Shown piece by piece: positions 44,837 to 52,280 of a stretch of 64,000 nucleotides of DNA. Position 1 is the first letter of the stretch, and each line of letters begins with the position of its first letter. The notes beneath the pieces are model-generated. The model did no database searches and had not been told where the DNA came from. It saw only the letters and a program-made list of their open reading frames with translations. Origin of the DNA: Celeribacter litoreus (GTDB lineage Bacteria; Pseudomonadota; Alphaproteobacteria; Rhodobacterales; Rhodobacteraceae); the NCBI RefSeq assembly GCF_020165855.1, contig NZ_JAIUFY010000008.1, positions 62,001-126,000 on the forward strand, given 5' to 3'. Both the position numbers and the translations under genes were made by a program.

Positions 44837-44947
44837 AGCCCTGAACGTGACGGGAAGGCCACCTTTCATAGTTTGGCCCCCCTTGTGTCCTGACCTTCGG
44901 CGGCGTATCTGTCACCGAACCCGAAAACCTAAAGATAGGTGAGAGCC

Positions 44948-46072
44948 GTGCGCGCAGAGATTCAGAACATTGTTGGGAAAATCGAGAAATCCCTTGGGCT
45001 TTTGAAACAGCGCCTGGATTGGGAAACGGCTCCACACCGTCTCGAAGAGTTCAACGCGATGATTGAGGATCCGACCCTGTGGGACGATCCTGCGCGTGCG
45101 CAGAAACTGATGCGGGAGCGTCAGGTGCTTATGGACGCGATGAAGGTCGCGACCGGCATCGAGACCGACATGAACGACAACATCGAACTCATTGAACTGG
45201 GCGAGATGGAAGAAGATCAGGAAGTCATCACCGACGCTGAAAATGCGCTCAAGGCGCTCGCTGTCACCGCCGCCGAGAAAGAACTCGAAGCCTTGCTCGA
45301 CGGTGAGGCTGATGCAAACGACACCTTCCTCGAGATCAACGCTGGCGCGGGTGGCACGGAGGCCTGTGACTGGGCGTCGATGCTACAGCGTATGTATGTT
45401 CGTTGGGCGGAGAAAAAGGGATACAAAGTCGAGCTTCAGTCCGAAGAAGCGGGCTCGGAAGCGGGGATCAAATCCTGTGCCTACAAAATCTCCGGTCACA
45501 ACGCTTATGGTTGGCTGAAGTCGGAGAGCGGTGTGCACCGTCTCGTCCGTATCTCGCCCTTCGGCAAGGGCACGCGCGAGACCTCGTTTGCCTCCGTTTG
45601 GGTCTATCCGGTCGTTGACGACAACATCGAAATCGAAGTGAACCCCGCCGACATCCGCATCGACACGTATCGTTCGTCCGGTGCAGGTGGTCAGCACGTG
45701 AACACGACGGACTCCGCCGTCCGGATCACCCACGCGCCAACGGGCATCGTTGTGACCTCATCCGAGAAGTCGCAGCACCAGAACCGCGATATCGCCATGA
45801 AGGCCCTGAAATCGCGCCTCTATCAACTTGAACTCGACCGCCGTTCCGAAGCAATCAACGAAGCGCATGAAAACAAGGGGTCCGCAGGCTGGGGCAACCA
45901 GATTCGCTCCTACGTTTTGCAGCCATACCAAATGGTGAAAGACCTGCGCACAAACTTCGAGACCGCGAACACGTCTGGTGTGCTTGATGGTGATCTCGAC
46001 GGGTTCATGGCCGCGACCCTTGCGATGAATGTCGCCGGTAAGTCGCGTGCGGATGCACAATCCGACGACTAA
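44948..46072 (+). CDS. prfB: Peptide chain release factor 2
   Basis: 374 residues. Recognises UGA and UAA stop codons; the tripeptide SPF (RISPFGKGTRE near 206) and the catalytic GGQ (SGAGGQHVNTTDSAV near 250) are both visible. The N-terminal coiled-coil has RLDWETAPHRLEEFNAMIEDP. Two GTG starts are possible (44939 and 44948); I take the second, since AGGTGAG lies about three bases before it and the product then opens with the conserved (M)RAEIQN. No in-frame UGA interrupts the early codons, so unlike E. coli prfB there is no programmed frameshift. A terminator follows. Confidence 0.96.
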   Translation: MRAEIQNIVGKIEKSLGLLKQRLDWETAPHRLEEFNAMIEDPTLWDDPARAQKLMRERQVLMDAMKVATGIETDMNDNIELIELGEMEEDQEVITDAENALKALAVTAAEKELEALLDGEADANDTFLEINAGAGGTEACDWASMLQRMYVRWAEKKGYKVELQSEEAGSEAGIKSCAYKISGHNAYGWLKSESGVHRLVRISPFGKGTRETSFASVWVYPVVDDNIEIEVNPADIRIDTYRSSGAGGQHVNTTDSAVRITHAPTGIVVTSSEKSQHQNRDIAMKALKSRLYQLELDRRSEAINEAHENKGSAGWGNQIRSYVLQPYQMVKDLRTNFETANTSGVLDGDLDGFMAATLAMNVAGKSRADAQSDD

Positions 46073-46102
46073 ATCGCACATCCTCACTTTTTGAGAACTC
46101 GG

Positions 46103-46136
46103 AAAGGCGCCCGGTTGGGGCGCTTTTTCTTTTTGT
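46103..46136 (+). terminator. Terminator after prfB
   Basis: AGGCGCCC (46105-46112) pairs, with a wobble, with GGGCGCTT (46118-46125), followed by TTTCTTTTT. Confidence 0.8.
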
Positions 46137-46178: not shown

Positions 46179-46200
46179 ATTCATCTTTTAAACTGTGAAT
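46179..46200. promoter_or_regulatory. Inverted repeat upstream of pmpA, ATTCA-N12-TGAAT
   Basis: ATTCA (46179-46183) and TGAAT (46196-46200) form a perfect pair of five-base arms in an AT-rich region 137 bases before pmpA. SqrR/BigR sites in related bacteria are ATTC-N8-GAAT palindromes, so this resembles one with a longer spacer (GAAT/ATTC arms, N14). I propose it as the operon's regulatory site with low confidence. Confidence 0.35.
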
Positions 46201-46336
46201 GTGACAAACTCACCGACAGATGCCGTGAGGATCTGCATACTCTTCCCAACAATGACGCGAAAAGCGACGCAACAAGGAAACGCACAATGATGAATCGCTC
46301 TGAGTCCCGAGCTTCCGCAAGAGGAGGCAACGCTCA

Positions 46337-46783
46337 ATGACAGATGGAACCGTTACGGAATTTACGCCGCTGATCTCGTTGATCGGGGGTCTGATGATCG
46401 GCGCCTCTGCCGTCCTTCTGATGCTGCTGCGCGGCCGAGTTTTCGGTGCGACCGGCATTCTCGCGGGCTTCATGAGCCCGCAGGGGTCCTCAGATTGGGC
46501 ATGGCGTGCGGCGCTGCTCTTCGGGATGGCGACTGGTCCGATCGCATATCTGATCGTGACCGGAGAGATGCCGGACATTCAGGTGCCTGTGTCGACCGGT
46601 GCACTGATCGTCGGTGGCTTCATCGTCGGGATCGGCGTGACCTACGGTTCCGGCTGCACCTCGGGCCATGGCGTCTGCGGTATGGCGCGACTGAGCCCGC
46701 GGTCCATCGTCGCGACACTGTCGTTTATGGTGTCTACAGCAGTCACAGTGTTTGTGATCCGTCACGTGATCGGAGGGGTGTAA
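46337..46783 (+). CDS. pmpA: YeeE/YedE family sulfur transport protein, PmpA-type
   Basis: 148 residues with four or five membrane segments. The signature is GVTYGSGCTSGHGVCGMARLSPRS near residues 95-117, with two Cys in the thiosulfate/sulfur-permeation path described for YeeE. PmpA and PmpB are half-size pairs of this family encoded together and linked to persulfide metabolism; together they would form one full-length YeeE-like channel. GAGGAGG eight bases before the ATG supports the start. pmpB follows directly (3 bases). First gene of the sulfur operon and nearest to the upstream inverted repeat. Confidence 0.9.
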   Translation: MTDGTVTEFTPLISLIGGLMIGASAVLLMLLRGRVFGATGILAGFMSPQGSSDWAWRAALLFGMATGPIAYLIVTGEMPDIQVPVSTGALIVGGFIVGIGVTYGSGCTSGHGVCGMARLSPRSIVATLSFMVSTAVTVFVIRHVIGGV

Positions 46784-46786
46784 GAG

Positions 46787-47230
46787 ATGGCTTTGTTTCT
46801 AACCTATCTGATCGGCCTCCTGTTCGGGATCGGGATTTCGATTTCCGGTATGGCCAACCCTGCGAAGGTCCTGAACTTCTTTGACTTTTCAGGCACTTGG
46901 GATCCGTCCTTGATCTTTGTGATGGGCGGCGCGCTGATCGTGTCCTTCTTCGGCTACCGCTGGGTGTTCAAGAAATTCGAGACCCCCGCAGTCGAGCCGC
47001 GTTTCGTTCTGCCGACGTCCAAAGTGATCGACGTACGTCTCGTTGGTGGCTCGCTCGTGTTCGGTGTCGGCTGGGGGATTGCGGGCTTCTGTCCCGGTGG
47101 CGCCCTGCCTGTGCTCGGGTCCTTTGATCCGAACGTCTGGATTTTCTTTGTTGCCCTCGTGGCTGGCATCTTTGCCGCCAAATACATGATGAAACTGACG
47201 GCAGCGCGTGCTGCCCGATCCGCCTCCTGA
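46787..47230 (+). CDS. pmpB: YeeE/YedE family (DUF6691) protein, PmpB-type
   Basis: 147 residues. Four hydrophobic segments: LTYLIGLLFGIGISISGM, LIFVMGGALIVSFFGYRWVF, LVGGSLVFGVGWGIAGFCPGGALPVLG and WIFFVALVAGIFAAKYMM. The Cys in GWGIAGFCPGGA is the counterpart of the sulfur-handling cysteine in the second half of YeeE. GMANPAKVLNFFDF at about 21-34 is the classic opening block. The start is three bases after the pmpA stop, so translation is coupled. Together with PmpA it probably brings in a reduced sulfur species (thiosulfate, sulfide or persulfide). Confidence 0.9.
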   Translation: MALFLTYLIGLLFGIGISISGMANPAKVLNFFDFSGTWDPSLIFVMGGALIVSFFGYRWVFKKFETPAVEPRFVLPTSKVIDVRLVGGSLVFGVGWGIAGFCPGGALPVLGSFDPNVWIFFVALVAGIFAAKYMMKLTAARAARSAS

Positions 47231-47263
47231 GGCGGGAACCAAGACTTGAGAGGAGAGAGTCCC

Positions 47264-48154
47264 ATGTCTTCTAACTATCCTGTCGATCTGACGACCCAGC
47301 CGGATGTGAAAGCATTCTTTGATCCGGCCACCTGGACGATTTCCTATGTCGTGAAAGACCCGGCCTCCAACTCCTGCGCCGTTGTCGATAGCGTCATGGA
47401 CATCGACTATGCCGCTGGCCGCATCTCCTATGAGAGCGCCGACCAGATCATCGAGTATGTCAAAGAAAACGATCTCAAGGTCGAATGGCTGATCGAGACC
47501 CACGTTCACGCTGACCACCTGTCTGCTGCGCCCTACATTCAGGACAAAGTGGGCGGTAAAATCGGCATCGGCGAGAACATCGTCGTAGTTCAGGACGTGT
47601 TCGGTAAAGTCTTCAACGAAGGCACCGAGTTCCAGCGCGACGGCTCCCAGTTCGACCGCCTCTTCAAAGACGGTGACACCTATCATGTCGGCGAGATGCA
47701 GTGCTTTGCGATGCACACTCCGGGTCACACCCCGGCCTGCATGGTGCATGTGATGGGCAACGCGACCTTTACCGGTGACACCCTGTTCATGCCGGATGGC
47801 GGCTCTGCACGTGCCGACTTCCCGGGTGGGGATGCGGGTGTGCTCTACGACTCGATCCAGAAGGTTCTGGCACTGCCAGACGATATGCGCCTCTTTATGT
47901 GCCACGACTACGGCCCGAACGGCCGTGATATCGAGTGGGAAACCACCGTGGGCGCCGAGAAAGAGCACAATATCCACGTCGGTGGCGGCAAATCCAAAGA
48001 GGATTTCGTCAAATTCCGCACGGAGCGCGATGCCCAACTCGCCATGCCGCGCCTGATTATTCCCTCTCTTCAGGTGAACATGCGCGCTGGTGAATTGCCG
48101 CCGCCGGATCAAGACGGTAAGACTTTCCTCAAAGTTCCGGTCAACGGTCTCTGA
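47264..48154 (+). CDS. blh: MBL-fold persulfide dioxygenase-type hydrolase (Blh)
   Basis: 296 residues. Metallo-beta-lactamase fold with the metal motif H80-V-H82-A-D84-H85 (ETHVHADHLSAAPYI), a further His in MHTPGHTPACMVH near 155 and an Asp/His pair in FTGDTLFMPDGG and MCHDYGPNGRD. The ARADFPGG-containing region (GGSARADFPGGDA) is typical of the ETHE1-related persulfide dioxygenases that oxidise glutathione or protein persulfide to sulfite with iron. GAGAGGAGAGAG before the ATG (47264) decides the start. Its place after pmpAB and before the DUF442 proteins is the arrangement known for blh in other proteobacteria. Confidence 0.93.
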   Translation: MSSNYPVDLTTQPDVKAFFDPATWTISYVVKDPASNSCAVVDSVMDIDYAAGRISYESADQIIEYVKENDLKVEWLIETHVHADHLSAAPYIQDKVGGKIGIGENIVVVQDVFGKVFNEGTEFQRDGSQFDRLFKDGDTYHVGEMQCFAMHTPGHTPACMVHVMGNATFTGDTLFMPDGGSARADFPGGDAGVLYDSIQKVLALPDDMRLFMCHDYGPNGRDIEWETTVGAEKEHNIHVGGGKSKEDFVKFRTERDAQLAMPRLIIPSLQVNMRAGELPPPDQDGKTFLKVPVNGL

Positions 48155-48214
48155 TTTGTCTTTCTCGACGGGTTGGGGGCGGGCGGTCCGGCCCCAACGC
48201 ACGAGGAGACACTC

Positions 48215-48628
48215 ATGGAATTCAACAAGATCAACGACGCCATCACCGTCAGCGGTCAGATCACGCCGGAAGAGGTGAAAACCCTCGCAGAGAAGGGCTT
48301 TAAAATCCTGATCTGCAACCGTCCGGACCAAGAGATCGGACCGGAGATGTCGTCCGAGGTCATGGCAGAGGCCGCCGCAGAGGCAGGGCTCGCCTTTCAC
48401 TACCTTCCGGTTGTTCCGGGAATGCTCACGCAGGACCTCATTGAAGAGACCGCCCGCATTCTCGAAGCAGCAGAAGGTCCAGTTTATGCCTACTGCCGGT
48501 CTGGCACCCGCTCTTGCAACGTCTGGGGACTGTCTCAGGCCGGTAAAGAGGCCGCTGACCGCATCATCGAACAAGGCGCTGGGGCCGGTTACGACCTGAA
48601 CGGCCTGCGTCCTCACTTGGGCGACTAA
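48215..48628 (+). CDS. DUF442 (TIGR01244) sulfur transferase/phosphatase-like protein
   Basis: 137 residues of one beta-lactamase-associated phosphatase-like domain: FNKINDAITVSGQITPEEV, ILICNRPDQE, LAFHYLPVVPG, then the P-loop Y-C94-R-S-G-T-R-S. This is a protein tyrosine phosphatase-type CX5R loop; in this family it probably carries sulfane sulfur as a rhodanese would rather than a phosphate, but that is inferred from context. GAGGAGA precedes the ATG (48215). The next gene carries a second copy of the same domain fused to a flavoprotein, with the same Cys at position 94. Confidence 0.88.
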   Translation: MEFNKINDAITVSGQITPEEVKTLAEKGFKILICNRPDQEIGPEMSSEVMAEAAAEAGLAFHYLPVVPGMLTQDLIEETARILEAAEGPVYAYCRSGTRSCNVWGLSQAGKEAADRIIEQGAGAGYDLNGLRPHLGD

Positions 48629-48711
48629 GCTTTCCACGATCTTCTCGTGCGGGGGCATCTACGCCCCCCTGTCTATAGGCCCTGAAAAGGGGCGCGCGAG
48701 GAGAACGGACA

Positions 48712-50388
48712 ATGGAAATCAAAAAGATCACGGACGGCCTGTCTGTGTCCGGCCAAATTCAGCCGGAAGATATGGAAAAGCTCAAACGCCGCGGTTTCCG
48801 CGCGGTGGTGTGCAACCGTCCGGATGGCGAAGCCCCCGACCAGCCAACGCATGAAGAAATGGCTGCGGCGGCAGCTAACGCCGGTCTCGAATTCCTCTAT
48901 CTGCCGGTCACTCCAGGGATCGTGACCGAAGAAACCGCGCAGGCCTTTCGTCAGGCTCTGACCGAATTGCCCGGTCCGGTTTTCGGTTATTGCCGCACTG
49001 GCACCCGCACCACGACGCTCTGGTCGCTCGCGATGGCGAAAGAGAAATCAGTCGTCGATATCCTCGCCGCGACCAAAGCCGCTGGCTACGATATGTCCGG
49101 TGTGGCGCGTCGGATCGCCAATGGCGGCGTAACTCCAACGGACTCCGTCGAAGATGCGAAATTCGATGTTGTGATCGTTGGCGGCGGGGCCGCAGGGATC
49201 GCCGTCGCGTCCTCGCTCAAGCAGCGCAAATCCGATCTCGAGATCGCGATCATTGACCCGTCCGATGTGCATTACTATCAGCCCGGTTGGACAATGGTCG
49301 GCGGCGGTGTCTTTGATGCGCAGACCACTGCGAAAACCATGGGCGGCCTGATCCCGCGCGGGGTGCATTGGCTCAAATCGGCCGTGGCTGCGTTCGAACC
49401 CAAAAACAACGCTGTGATCCTCGATGGATGCCGGGTCGTGAAATACGACCGCCTCGTCGTCTGTCCGGGGCTCAAGCTCGACTGGGACCGCATCGAAGGT
49501 CTTACAGATACCCTCGGAAAGAACGGCGTCACGTCGAATTACCGTTACGATCTCGCGCCTTACACGTGGAAGTTGGTGCAGGAAACCAAAGGCGGCAAGG
49601 CCATCTTCACCCAGCCGCCGATGCCGATCAAATGCGCTGGCGCGCCGCAAAAGGCGATGTATCTTTCTGCCTATGAGTGGGAACAGCGCGGCGTACTCAA
49701 GAACATCGACATCCAGTTCATGAACGCGGGCGGTGTGCTCTTTGGGGTGAAGGACTATGTGCCTGCGCTCGAAAAATATGTCGATCGCTACGGTATTGAT
49801 CTCAACTTCTTCCACAACCTGAAATCCATTGACGGCCCCGCGAAGAAGGCGACGTTCACGGTCTCCAAACCGGACACTGAGCCGACCGAGGTCACTGTTG
49901 ATTTCGACATGATCCATGTGGTGCCGCCGCAGGTCGCGCCGGACTTCATCCGCGTGTCGCCGCTCGCAGATGCCGCGGGCTGGGTCGATGTGGATCAGCA
50001 GACCCTCCGCCACGCGAGCTTTGACAACATCTGGTCGCTCGGGGATGTCATGAACGCGCCGAACGCCAAAACCGCCGCCGCCGCCCGTTTTCAGGCCGCT
50101 GTGGTCGCCGAAAACATGGTCTCTGATATCAACGGCAAATCGCCAGAAGCGGCCTACAATGGCTACGGGTCCTGTCCGCTCACCGTCGAGAAGGGCAAGA
50201 TCGTTCTGGCGGAGTTCGGATATGGCGGCGCTCTGCTGCCGTCCTTCCCGAAATGGGCGCTCGACGGGACAAAACCGACCCGCCGCGCATGGTGGCTCAA
50301 AGAGCAGATCCTCCCGCCGATCTATTGGAAGGCCATGCTCCGCGGCAAGGAATGGATGATCAAACCTGAAAAGGTCTCCGCAAAATAA
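48712..50388 (+). CDS. DUF442 domain fused to sulfide:quinone reductase-like flavoprotein
   Basis: 558 residues. Residues 1 to about 135 are a DUF442 domain with the P-loop Y-C94-R-T-G-T-R. Residues about 150-558 are an FAD/NAD(P) oxidoreductase: dinucleotide motif VVIVGGGAAGIAVAS near 153-167, HYYQPGWTMVGGG near 187-199, and two cysteines placed like the redox pair of sulfide:quinone reductase, C308 (IKCAGAPQK) and C488 (YGSCPLTVE), with SLGDVMNAPNAKTAAA near 442-457 binding FAD. The C-terminal amphipathic region (WWLKEQILPPIYWKAML) is likely the membrane and quinone-binding end. It should oxidise sulfide to persulfide and pass electrons to quinone, the fused domain taking the sulfur. GAGGAGA supports the start. 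Confidence 0.93.
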   Translation: MEIKKITDGLSVSGQIQPEDMEKLKRRGFRAVVCNRPDGEAPDQPTHEEMAAAAANAGLEFLYLPVTPGIVTEETAQAFRQALTELPGPVFGYCRTGTRTTTLWSLAMAKEKSVVDILAATKAAGYDMSGVARRIANGGVTPTDSVEDAKFDVVIVGGGAAGIAVASSLKQRKSDLEIAIIDPSDVHYYQPGWTMVGGGVFDAQTTAKTMGGLIPRGVHWLKSAVAAFEPKNNAVILDGCRVVKYDRLVVCPGLKLDWDRIEGLTDTLGKNGVTSNYRYDLAPYTWKLVQETKGGKAIFTQPPMPIKCAGAPQKAMYLSAYEWEQRGVLKNIDIQFMNAGGVLFGVKDYVPALEKYVDRYGIDLNFFHNLKSIDGPAKKATFTVSKPDTEPTEVTVDFDMIHVVPPQVAPDFIRVSPLADAAGWVDVDQQTLRHASFDNIWSLGDVMNAPNAKTAAAARFQAAVVAENMVSDINGKSPEAAYNGYGSCPLTVEKGKIVLAEFGYGGALLPSFPKWALDGTKPTRRAWWLKEQILPPIYWKAMLRGKEWMIKPEKVSAK

Positions 50389-50448
50389 TCGGCCTGAAGC
50401 GGGTCTCTCGATCCGCCTCGCGCACACGCATAATAAGGACGTTTCCCC

Positions 50449-52230
50449 GTGTCTCTTCAAAGCTCATTCGATCCCAAGAAACTCAAACGCTACCTGCCCA
50501 TTCTGGACTGGGGATCGCGCTATAACGCGTCGACATTTGCCAATGACGGGATCGCCGCCATTATTGTGACGATCATGCTGATCCCGCAATCGCTCGCCTA
50601 TGCGCTGTTGGCGGGTCTTCCTGCGCAGATGGGTCTTTACGCCTCCATCCTGCCTCTCGTGGCCTACGCGGTTTTCGGCACATCGCGGGCGCTCGCGGTC
50701 GGTCCGGTGGCTGTTGTCTCGCTTATGACAGCGGCGTCTGTGGGGAACATGGCGCTTCAGGGCACGGCGGAATATGCGGCAGCGGCGATCACGCTGGCGT
50801 TCTTGTCCGGTCTGATCCTGCTCGTGATGGGGATTTTCCGCCTCGGGTTCTTTGCGAACTTCCTGTCACACCCTGTGATTGCAGGCTTCATCACGGCGTC
50901 CGGAATTCTGATCGCCGCCTCGCAGGTGAAGCATATTTTCGGCGTGTCTGCGGGGGGACATACGTTGCCTGAGCGCTTGGTCCAACTGGCGGAGAACATT
51001 GGCGAGACCAACCTGATCACGTTGGTGATCGGTGTCGCGGCCACGGCGTTCCTGTTCTGGGTGCGCAAGGGGCTCAAACCTCTGCTTCTGTCCAAGGGTG
51101 TGTCGCCGCGTATGGCAGATATCGCGACGAAGGCCGGTCCAGTGGCTGCGGTCGTCGTCACCACGCTGATCACCTTTGTCTTCGGCCTGCACAATCACGG
51201 CGTCAAAATCGTGGGCGAGGTGCCGCGAGGTCTGCCACCGCTCACCCTGCCGCATTTCAGCCCGACGATCTGGTCGCAACTCTTCGGTTCCGCGATCCTC
51301 ATCTCCATCATCGGCTTTGTGGAATCCGTATCGGTCGCCCAGACGCTCGCCGCGAAAAAACGCCAGCGCATTGTTCCGGATCAGGAGCTGATTGGTCTCG
51401 GCGCGTCCAACATCGCGGCGGCGGTCTCCGGCGGCTATCCGGTGACCGGTGGCTTCGCGCGCTCTGTTGTGAACTTCGATGCGGGGGCTGAGACACCCGC
51501 GGCAGGGGCGTTCACCGCCGTAGGTATCGCGCTCGCCGCGCTGTTCCTCACGCCGCTTCTCTACTTCTTGCCGGTTGCGACGCTGGCTGCGACGATCATC
51601 GTGGCGGTTCTGTCTCTGGTGGATTTCTCGATCCTCAAGAGCACATGGGGCTACTCAAAAACCGATTTCGCCGCCGTTCTCGCGACGATCCTCCTGACGC
51701 TCGGGTTTGGTGTGGAGACGGGCGTGTCCTCTGGTGTGATCCTCTCGATCGCGATGCACCTCTACAAAACCTCGCGGCCGCATATTGCAGAGGTCGGTTT
51801 GGTGCCGGGTACGGAGCATTTCCGCAACATCAACCGTCACGACGTTCTGACGACGACGGATGTGGTGACGATCCGTGTGGACGAGAGCCTCTATTTCGCA
51901 AATGCGCGGTTCCTAGAGGACTATGTTCTCGACCGGATTGCGGACGACAAGGACATCAAACACGTGGTCCTCATGTGTCCGGCGGTGAACGAGATCGACC
52001 AATCGGCACTTGAGGCGCTCGAAGAGATCAACAAGCGTCTCGACGATGGCGGGATCAAGCTTCACCTCTCCGAGGTGAAAGGCCCTGTGATGGACCGCCT
52101 GCAGAAATGCCATTTCCTGCACGAGCTGACGGGGCAAGTGTTCCTGAGCCAGTATGCCGCGATGAAGGCGCTCGGGGATGTGACGGTGCCGCCGGTGGCG
52201 TCAGAGACCGACGAAGACAAGGTGGCCTGA
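50449..52230 (+). CDS. SulP family anion transporter with STAS domain
   Basis: 593 residues. Ten or more membrane segments in the first 410 residues (AFANDGIAAIIVTIMLIPQSLAYALLAGLP-like opening, ALAVGPVAVVSLMTAAS, FVESVSVAQTLAAKKRQRI), then a cytoplasmic STAS domain near 440-580 (TIRVDESLYFANARFLEDYVLDRI, VVLMCPAVNEIDQSALEALEEI). SulP proteins move sulfate, bicarbonate and related anions. As the last gene of the sulfide/persulfide operon it most likely exports or exchanges the sulfite or sulfate produced. The start is GTG (50449), with AAGGA nine bases ahead. A terminator follows 18 bases after the stop. Confidence 0.92.
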   Translation: MSLQSSFDPKKLKRYLPILDWGSRYNASTFANDGIAAIIVTIMLIPQSLAYALLAGLPAQMGLYASILPLVAYAVFGTSRALAVGPVAVVSLMTAASVGNMALQGTAEYAAAAITLAFLSGLILLVMGIFRLGFFANFLSHPVIAGFITASGILIAASQVKHIFGVSAGGHTLPERLVQLAENIGETNLITLVIGVAATAFLFWVRKGLKPLLLSKGVSPRMADIATKAGPVAAVVVTTLITFVFGLHNHGVKIVGEVPRGLPPLTLPHFSPTIWSQLFGSAILISIIGFVESVSVAQTLAAKKRQRIVPDQELIGLGASNIAAAVSGGYPVTGGFARSVVNFDAGAETPAAGAFTAVGIALAALFLTPLLYFLPVATLAATIIVAVLSLVDFSILKSTWGYSKTDFAAVLATILLTLGFGVETGVSSGVILSIAMHLYKTSRPHIAEVGLVPGTEHFRNINRHDVLTTTDVVTIRVDESLYFANARFLEDYVLDRIADDKDIKHVVLMCPAVNEIDQSALEALEEINKRLDDGGIKLHLSEVKGPVMDRLQKCHFLHELTGQVFLSQYAAMKALGDVTVPPVASETDEDKVA

Positions 52231-52248: not shown

Positions 52249-52280
52249 AAAACGCCCTTCCGATCTCGGGAGGGCGTTTT
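52249..52280. terminator. Bidirectional terminator after the sulfur operon
   Basis: AAAACGCCCT (52249-52258) pairs with AGGGCGTTTT (52271-52280), with A/T runs at both ends, serving the SulP gene and the convergent kinase gene. Confidence 0.9.

Follow-up and report, generated by a model that had tools for sequence, protein, structure and literature searches.

We analysed a 64,000-nucleotide stretch of the genome of the marine bacterium Celeribacter litoreus (contig NZ_JAIUFY010000008.1, positions 62,001 to 126,000; hereafter, the window) and propose that six co-directional genes at 46337-52230 on its + strand constitute an operon for the cytoplasmic oxidation of sulfide and zero-valent sulfur, a pathway that is very likely right in outline. 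In this pathway, the transporter halves PmpA and PmpB would bring zero-valent sulfur or polysulfide into the cell as glutathione persulfide, while the sulfide:quinone reductase (SQR) half of a DUF442-SQR fusion would oxidise H2S and pass electrons to quinone. Sulfur from the SQR would move to the cysteine of the fused DUF442 domain, with participation of a standalone DUF442 protein, and on to glutathione; a persulfide dioxygenase (PDO) would convert glutathione persulfide and O2 to sulfite, and SulP would carry the resulting sulfite or sulfate through the membrane. Outward transport is the most likely, and would let the Sox system of the same genome complete the oxidation. A Crp/Fnr-family regulator encoded beside the sox genes probably controls transcription, acting at 46201-46213. 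We consider the whole explanation, from import through SQR-DUF442 transfer, PDO and SulP to Crp/Fnr control, probable. What the sequences show is which genes are present and in what order, which cysteines are conserved, how the modules are built and that regulator and DNA element occur together; the activities in this organism, the hand-over of sulfur within the fusion, the substrate and direction of SulP and the target and signal of the regulator are inferred. A preliminary description of this DNA had outlined such a route with a Blh dioxygenase and with PmpAB importing sulfide or persulfide; the outline holds, given the conserved co-directional gene set, families that together form a sulfide and sulfane-sulfur oxidation route, and invariant cysteines, whereas the Blh label is wrong and the import assignment unsupported. 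Rhodobacteraceae are among the heterotrophs described as carrying sulfur-oxidation genes (PMC12345210), and the points of interest here are the reshuffling of domains, the two-module structure and the regulator-element pair.

The list of open reading frames (ORFs) in the window confirmed the six genes, their shared strand and the outer coordinates given earlier; start codons within longer ORFs were picked by ribosome-site-like sequence. The features are as follows.

46101-46129, + strand: terminator-like hairpin 3' of a prfB-like gene (ORF 44939-46072); upstream operon boundary
46200-46219, + strand: conserved 20-bp block upstream of pmpA; contains the candidate Crp/Fnr operator 46201-46213
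46337-46783, + strand: pmpA, C-terminal half of a YeeE/YedE transporter; Cys107, Cys114
46787-47230, + strand: pmpB, N-terminal half of a YeeE/YedE transporter, DUF6691; Cys102
47264-48154, + strand: pdo, persulfide dioxygenase without DUF442; THVHADH 79-85, HTPGHT 151-156, TGDTLF 170-175
48215-48628, + strand: standalone DUF442, BLH_phosphatase/TIGR01244 sulfurtransferase; Cys94 in YCRSGTRS
48712-50388, + strand: DUF442-SQR fusion gene
48712-49122, + strand: DUF442 domain of the fusion, N-terminal part, residues 1-137; Cys94
49162-50388, + strand: SQR domain of the fusion, residues 151-558; C308, C488
50449-52230, + strand: sulP, GTG start, SLC26/SulP anion transporter with STAS domain
52256-52274, + strand: terminator-like hairpin 3' of sulP; downstream operon boundary

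The fusion protein consists of PF04273 followed by a flavin disulfide oxidoreductase in Pfam and NCBIfam searches. The nearest relative of its SQR domain in the Protein Data Bank (PDB) is human SQOR (310 bits), with whose cysteines C308 and C488 align; we take these SQOR cysteines to be its redox pair. The AlphaFold model of the fusion (mean pLDDT 80, with the last 70 residues poor) returned the SQOR fold in Foldseek at a target TM of 0.82-0.84. Judged from sequence and model, the domain has both the flavoprotein fold and the two redox cysteines of a sulfide:quinone oxidoreductase. An alignment of 23 fusions shows no variation at Cys94 of the DUF442 domain or at the SQR residues Cys308 and Cys488, which suggests that both activities have been retained; since the N-terminus starts with DUF442 and by inspection has no signal peptide, we read the protein as cytoplasmic. 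The closest named relatives of the operon are in Celeribacter species, with fusion identities of 90, 87 and 86% over the best segment. In a family sample of 149 genomes, the full fusion occurs in 38, the C. litoreus genome included, and a close SQR without fused DUF442 in two (G136 and G090). Word searches of the open-access literature found no description of a DUF442-SQR fusion. The architecture allows a clean question to be asked, namely whether SQR sulfur is handed over directly, as we propose, or released.

The preliminary description had named the third gene Blh, but its product corresponds to the PDO part of Blh, with the DUF442 part missing. This metallo-beta-lactamase matches the 423-position Blh model NF040641 at 139-422 only (387 bits, against a cut-off of 625), and Blh identity is ruled out by a score below the cut-off with the DUF442 part of the model unmatched. 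By sequence, it belongs with ETHE1/PDO: it matches metallo-beta-lactamase/PDO chains in the PDB, including ETHE1 4chl, and its metal-ligand motifs could be located, the iron-binding residues within them being our assumption. The DUF442 part of Blh occurs twice in the operon, as the standalone gene and N-terminally on SQR. Both domains pass TIGR01244 (135.4 and 128.8 bits; cut-off 85.85), match PF04273 and carry Cys94 of CRxGTR, and a study of the bigR operon describes Blh's DUF442 domain as a sulfurtransferase coupled to the dioxygenase (PMC5823870).

PmpA matches PF04143 at positions 180-309 of 310 and PmpB matches PF20398 (DUF6691), giving two short YedE halves with conserved cysteines, as in PmpAB/YedE1E2; in a published account, PmpA is equivalent to the C-terminal half of a YeeE protein and PmpB to the N-terminal one (PMC11582611). 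YedE1E2 is reported to import zero-valent sulfur, yielding glutathione persulfide, without accelerating export and with a requirement for the conserved cysteine of each half; the halves are usually neighbours, each conserved cysteine is essential in the Cupriavidus pair, and pdo is present in 177 of 212 genomes with the pair (PMC10812762). Because this is the same kind of pair, zero-valent sulfur is a more likely substrate of PmpAB than sulfide, and the sulfide or persulfide import suggested earlier is unsupported.

SulP passes the cut-offs for PF00916 and STAS, and that of the general sulP model TIGR00815 (440 bits; cut-off 380). It falls far under the cut-offs of the DauA and BicA models, so these assign no substrate, and its best solved relatives are plant sulfate transporter 4.1 (310 bits) and then prestin (290 bits). 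Among 80 named loci (the best 80 of at least 587 confirmed hits), SulP starts within 400 bp past the fusion in 75; it is farther off in L096 and was not found in L037, L052, L094 and L104. The family sample gave a similar picture, with SulP downstream in 33 of the 37 fusion loci from other genomes (27 of 29 with ~1.5 kb of flank and 6 of 8 further loci). A phmmer search (E 1e-9) with the seven TauE-family proteins of the C. litoreus genome found no relative near the 80 loci, nor in 12 + 20 further stretches; the two matches listed are to an antisense frame of one query stretch. The linked transporter is thus SulP and not TauE, as the preliminary description had it. The linkage as such is not new, because a pdo-sqrB-sulP cluster is in print for Methylophaga, where SulP is called a sulfate/sulfite permease (PMC6548844). 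Because L132 and L133 keep PDO-DUF442-SulP without SQR, their DUF442 falling on the fusion side of the tree, SulP seems tied to the oxidation route itself. The linkage points to a substrate from the sulfite/sulfate end of the route, with outward transport the most likely direction.

Several observations weigh against this reading of the operon. The 80 named loci are biased to close relatives; 25 of 79 loci with enough upstream sequence have no PDO beside SQR and 49 of 79 have no PmpB within 3.5 kb upstream; and a consensus scan found no sigma-70-type promoter match upstream of pmpA. SulP proteins carry many anions and can import, and any of the seven TauE-family genes elsewhere in the genome could export sulfite. 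The last two points bear on an alternative in which SulP is not the product exporter but imports sulfate, moves an anion such as bicarbonate, or exchanges anions, with sulfite leaving through a TauE-family protein. Import or exchange is common among SulP members, and the pattern of model scores (general cut-off passed, DauA and BicA missed by far) and the span of solved relatives from sulfate transporters to prestin accord with such a role. Against it, a transporter gene that recurs next to sulfane-sulfur oxidation genes more naturally serves the product of the route, and the top-scoring solved relative is a sulfate transporter. We regard this alternative as somewhat improbable and retain SulP as the putative exporter of the pathway.

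The genome holding the operon (3.66 Mb) contains a sox cluster with one SoxY and, in a row, proteins of the sulfite-oxidase-type molybdoprotein, cytochrome c and SoxB-like kinds; its other genes are assigned their sox letters by gene order. Oxyanions or thiosulfate moved outward could therefore be further oxidised by the same organism. At the start of this cluster (L150:6844-8321), an ArsR regulator (BigR model 98.2 bits, cut-off 155) adjoins a full-length YeeE gene. A second SQR-like protein (L151:10993-12321, contig C8), with a twin-arginine-like leader on inspection, is followed by a DUF5368 gene and directly preceded by genes that we take to be cytochrome bd oxidase-like; it could supply zero-valent sulfur outside the cytoplasm for import by PmpAB.

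Comparison of loci across genomes resolves the gene list into two recurring modules and SQR's companion transporter, SulP. Upstream of the fusion, PDO is present at 54 of the 79 loci, PmpB at 30 and PmpA at 29. A separate DUF442 stands there at 3, each from Celeribacter; among eight further loci from the family sample, L125 likewise carries a separate DUF442. The 25 loci without an adjoining PDO and the 49 without upstream PmpB show that the gene set is not an obligate unit. All 25 genomes without PDO beside SQR nevertheless encode one elsewhere, at 64-69% identity, which rules out PDO loss. In 20 of these 25 genomes that were examined, the unlinked PDO is adjoined by PmpA and PmpB in all 20 and by a standalone DUF442 in 19 (not L158), and the matches listed for these 20 stretches include no SQR or SulP. 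Because the two modules occur apart elsewhere, we regard the window operon as a union of PDO-PmpAB-DUF442 with DUF442-SQR-SulP, and the earlier word "complete" is too strong for an operon whose PDO and PmpAB are often encoded elsewhere. A tree of DUF442 domains (rooted at the midpoint, built from just 137 columns and with 43 of the 118 fusions sampled) groups four Celeribacter-type standalone DUF442 with 19 standalone DUF442 from PDO-PmpAB operons at support 100/93. This placement leaves the idea of the standalone gene as a recent duplicate of the fusion domain unsupported; in L125, as an exception, the standalone DUF442 groups with its own fusion (89/98). Near the fusion operon, 8-9 of the 80 loci (L039, L041, L061, L064, L065, L075, L082, L104 and L110) have subunit genes of what we take to be a cytochrome bd-like oxidase, and in 10 of the 80 a regulator that is presumably Rrf2/NsrR-like stands upstream of the operon (e.g., L085:5132-5617).

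The separation of modules also bears on the product of the fusion, which could be thiosulfate and not glutathione persulfide if sulfur passed from SQR to DUF442 and then to sulfite, with thiosulfate exported to Sox. Consistent with this, 25 of 79 fusion loci have no adjoining pdo, the genome has a sox cluster, and the DUF442 of Blh accepts thiosulfate as a donor in vitro (PMC5823870). Persulfide oxidation is still available where pdo is unlinked, since all 25 such genomes encode it elsewhere, and in the window pdo sits in the same gene row; we consider a thiosulfate product unlikely and favour transfer to glutathione.

The same gene order recurs in many genera and so is not due to chance. Intergenic gaps along the operon are 3, 33, 60, 83 and 60 bp; scanning them on the + strand for terminator and promoter consensus sequences gave no match. 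That scan used consensus matches only and found 12 terminator-like sites, against 5.1 in shuffles, and 1 promoter-like site, against 2.2. The hairpins listed above bound the six genes, the one upstream following the prfB-like gene, and a single transcript for all six is plausible from the sequence. That pmpA-pmpB-pdo-DUF442 and DUF442-SQR-sulP are two independent transcription units merely lying side by side is quite unlikely: the modules do occur apart and the widest gap (83 bp) is at their junction, but that junction showed no + strand terminator-like or promoter-like site (a weak test) and the joined order is found in many genera.

Control of the operon in the window probably involves a regulator encoded elsewhere. 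In 33 of the 80 loci the operon has a Crp/Fnr-family gene nearby (2.9 kb off in L071, on the other strand in L094), and C. litoreus has its own at G000:C9:21950-22603 (L150:17951-18607), directly past the sox genes. In an alignment of 38 rows representing 37 genes, with the C. litoreus protein entered twice, Cys77 never varies and Cys83 is present in 35 rows; the recognition helix has R180, E181 and R185 in every row. We take these three to be the residues by which E. coli CRP reads TGTGA half-sites. Upstream of the operon, 17 of the 33 regulator-bearing loci have an exact copy of the element GTGAC-N3-GTCAC, against 1 of 44 that lack the regulator; at ≤1 mismatch the figures are 25 of 33 and 4 of 44 (one-sided Fisher 1.5e-9). 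Three loci of short upstream sequence (L054, L102 and L112) are left out of the count. Because some of the counted loci had also supplied the motif, this contrast is partly circular for its letters, though not for regulator presence, and the loci are related, the three Celeribacter genomes being one lineage. The background in regulator loci is 0.009 exact and 0.027 one-mismatch elements per 450 bp, none of eight other spacings exceeded 2 of 33 and 3 of 44 loci, and when the upstream span was widened to 600 bp the element was found in 30 of the 33.

The four loci with an element and no nearby regulator are the three Celeribacter loci and L113. A regulator relative above 190 bits occurs in 5 of 46 genomes without a nearby regulator, namely these four and that of L059 (Fisher 3e-5); the comparison leaves out L106, the 42 genomes set against the four include L054, L102 and L112, and the 190-bit line was set after the list was seen, L113 dropping out at 230 bits (3 of 4 versus 1). 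At E 1e-30, 14 of the 46 genomes match the regulator, nine of them at 113-156 bits. Of 36 regulator orthologs in the family sample (those above 236 bits, a gap picked after the list was seen), at least 18 have an SQR or DUF442 gene no more than 10 kb away among the matches listed. The regulator is present in 14 of 38 fusion genomes and 22 of 111 fusion-free genomes, a weak association (one-sided p 0.03). Since it is absent from 24 of 38 fusion genomes and present in 22 of 111 without the fusion, other controls must exist.

In the window, the candidate operator is GTGACAAACTCAC at 46201-46213, one mismatch from GTGAC-N3-GTCAC. The 20-bp block that contains it, 46200-46219, is mismatch-free before pmpA in three named Celeribacter genomes, while the remaining upstream region has diverged. 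Three more one-mismatch copies lie within the window, and genome-wide there are 114 sites at ≤1 mismatch against 59 for the reversed pattern, which is uninformative as a regulon listing. The single exact element of the genome falls within an ORF whose surroundings show no obvious sulfur genes, and the sox and second-SQR stretches have none at ≤1 mismatch. ArsR-type proteins (PF01022) have 8 matches in the genome and none on the window's contig, C10, which rules out SqrR/BigR-type control by a gene of the operon; neither the BigR-type ArsR repressor nor the TauE exporter that characterise a bigR operon is present in it. Beside the C. litoreus regulator, a small membrane protein (L150:18612-18932) matches PF11127 and is YgaP-like, and by eye a similar-looking small protein occurs near the operon in 9 of the 80 loci.

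The Crp/Fnr protein may itself be the sensor. Known sulfane-sulfur sensors include ArsR, CsoR, sigma54 and MarR types, and word searches of the open-access literature found no description of a Crp/Fnr sulfide regulator of this kind. As a tentative proposal, bolder than the pathway itself, we suggest that Crp/Fnr proteins with Cys77 and Cys83 are a new sulfane-sulfur sensor type governing PDO/SQR operons through GTGAC-N3-GTCAC in Rhodobacterales and several other alphaproteobacterial groups, and that the SQR's own sulfurtransferase passes sulfur to persulfide without release. If true, a Crp/Fnr sensor would join the four types above. The regulator and its putative DNA site offer a specific, testable pair in a culturable genus.

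Among known systems, the bigR operon found in Xylella and Agrobacterium, which encodes BigR, Blh as DUF442-ETHE1 and a TauE-related sulfite transporter, has in common with the operon here the DUF442 and PDO domains and the predicted sulfite product (PMC5823870). The operon here differs in that DUF442 is split from PDO, occurring standalone and fused to SQR, that SulP replaces TauE, and that the operon has a Crp/Fnr-linked element and no BigR gene. The mto clusters of Methylophaga thiooxydans (mtoX ... pdo, sqrB, sulP) likewise group pdo, SQR and sulP but are linked to methanethiol oxidase, and the available part of that account mentions no DUF442 fusion or PmpAB (PMC6548844). The YedE1E2 systems of Cupriavidus pinatubonensis and Sinorhizobium meliloti have two short YedE halves with conserved cysteines, like PmpAB here, whereas the accessible portion of their description includes no SQR fusion or SulP linkage (PMC10812762).

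Human mitochondrial SQOR is the closest solved match to the SQR domain and shares both cysteines, the bacterial protein having an extra N-terminal DUF442. In the cst operon of Staphylococcus aureus, the multidomain sulfurtransferase CstA and the regulator CstR stand where the operon here has DUF442 and Crp/Fnr. Its set of CstA, CstB and SQR, a sulfurtransferase, a dioxygenase and a type II SQR in one regulated operon, is similar (PMC9995734). The chemistry is thus familiar, and the domain fusion, the transporter and the probable switch vary a known design.

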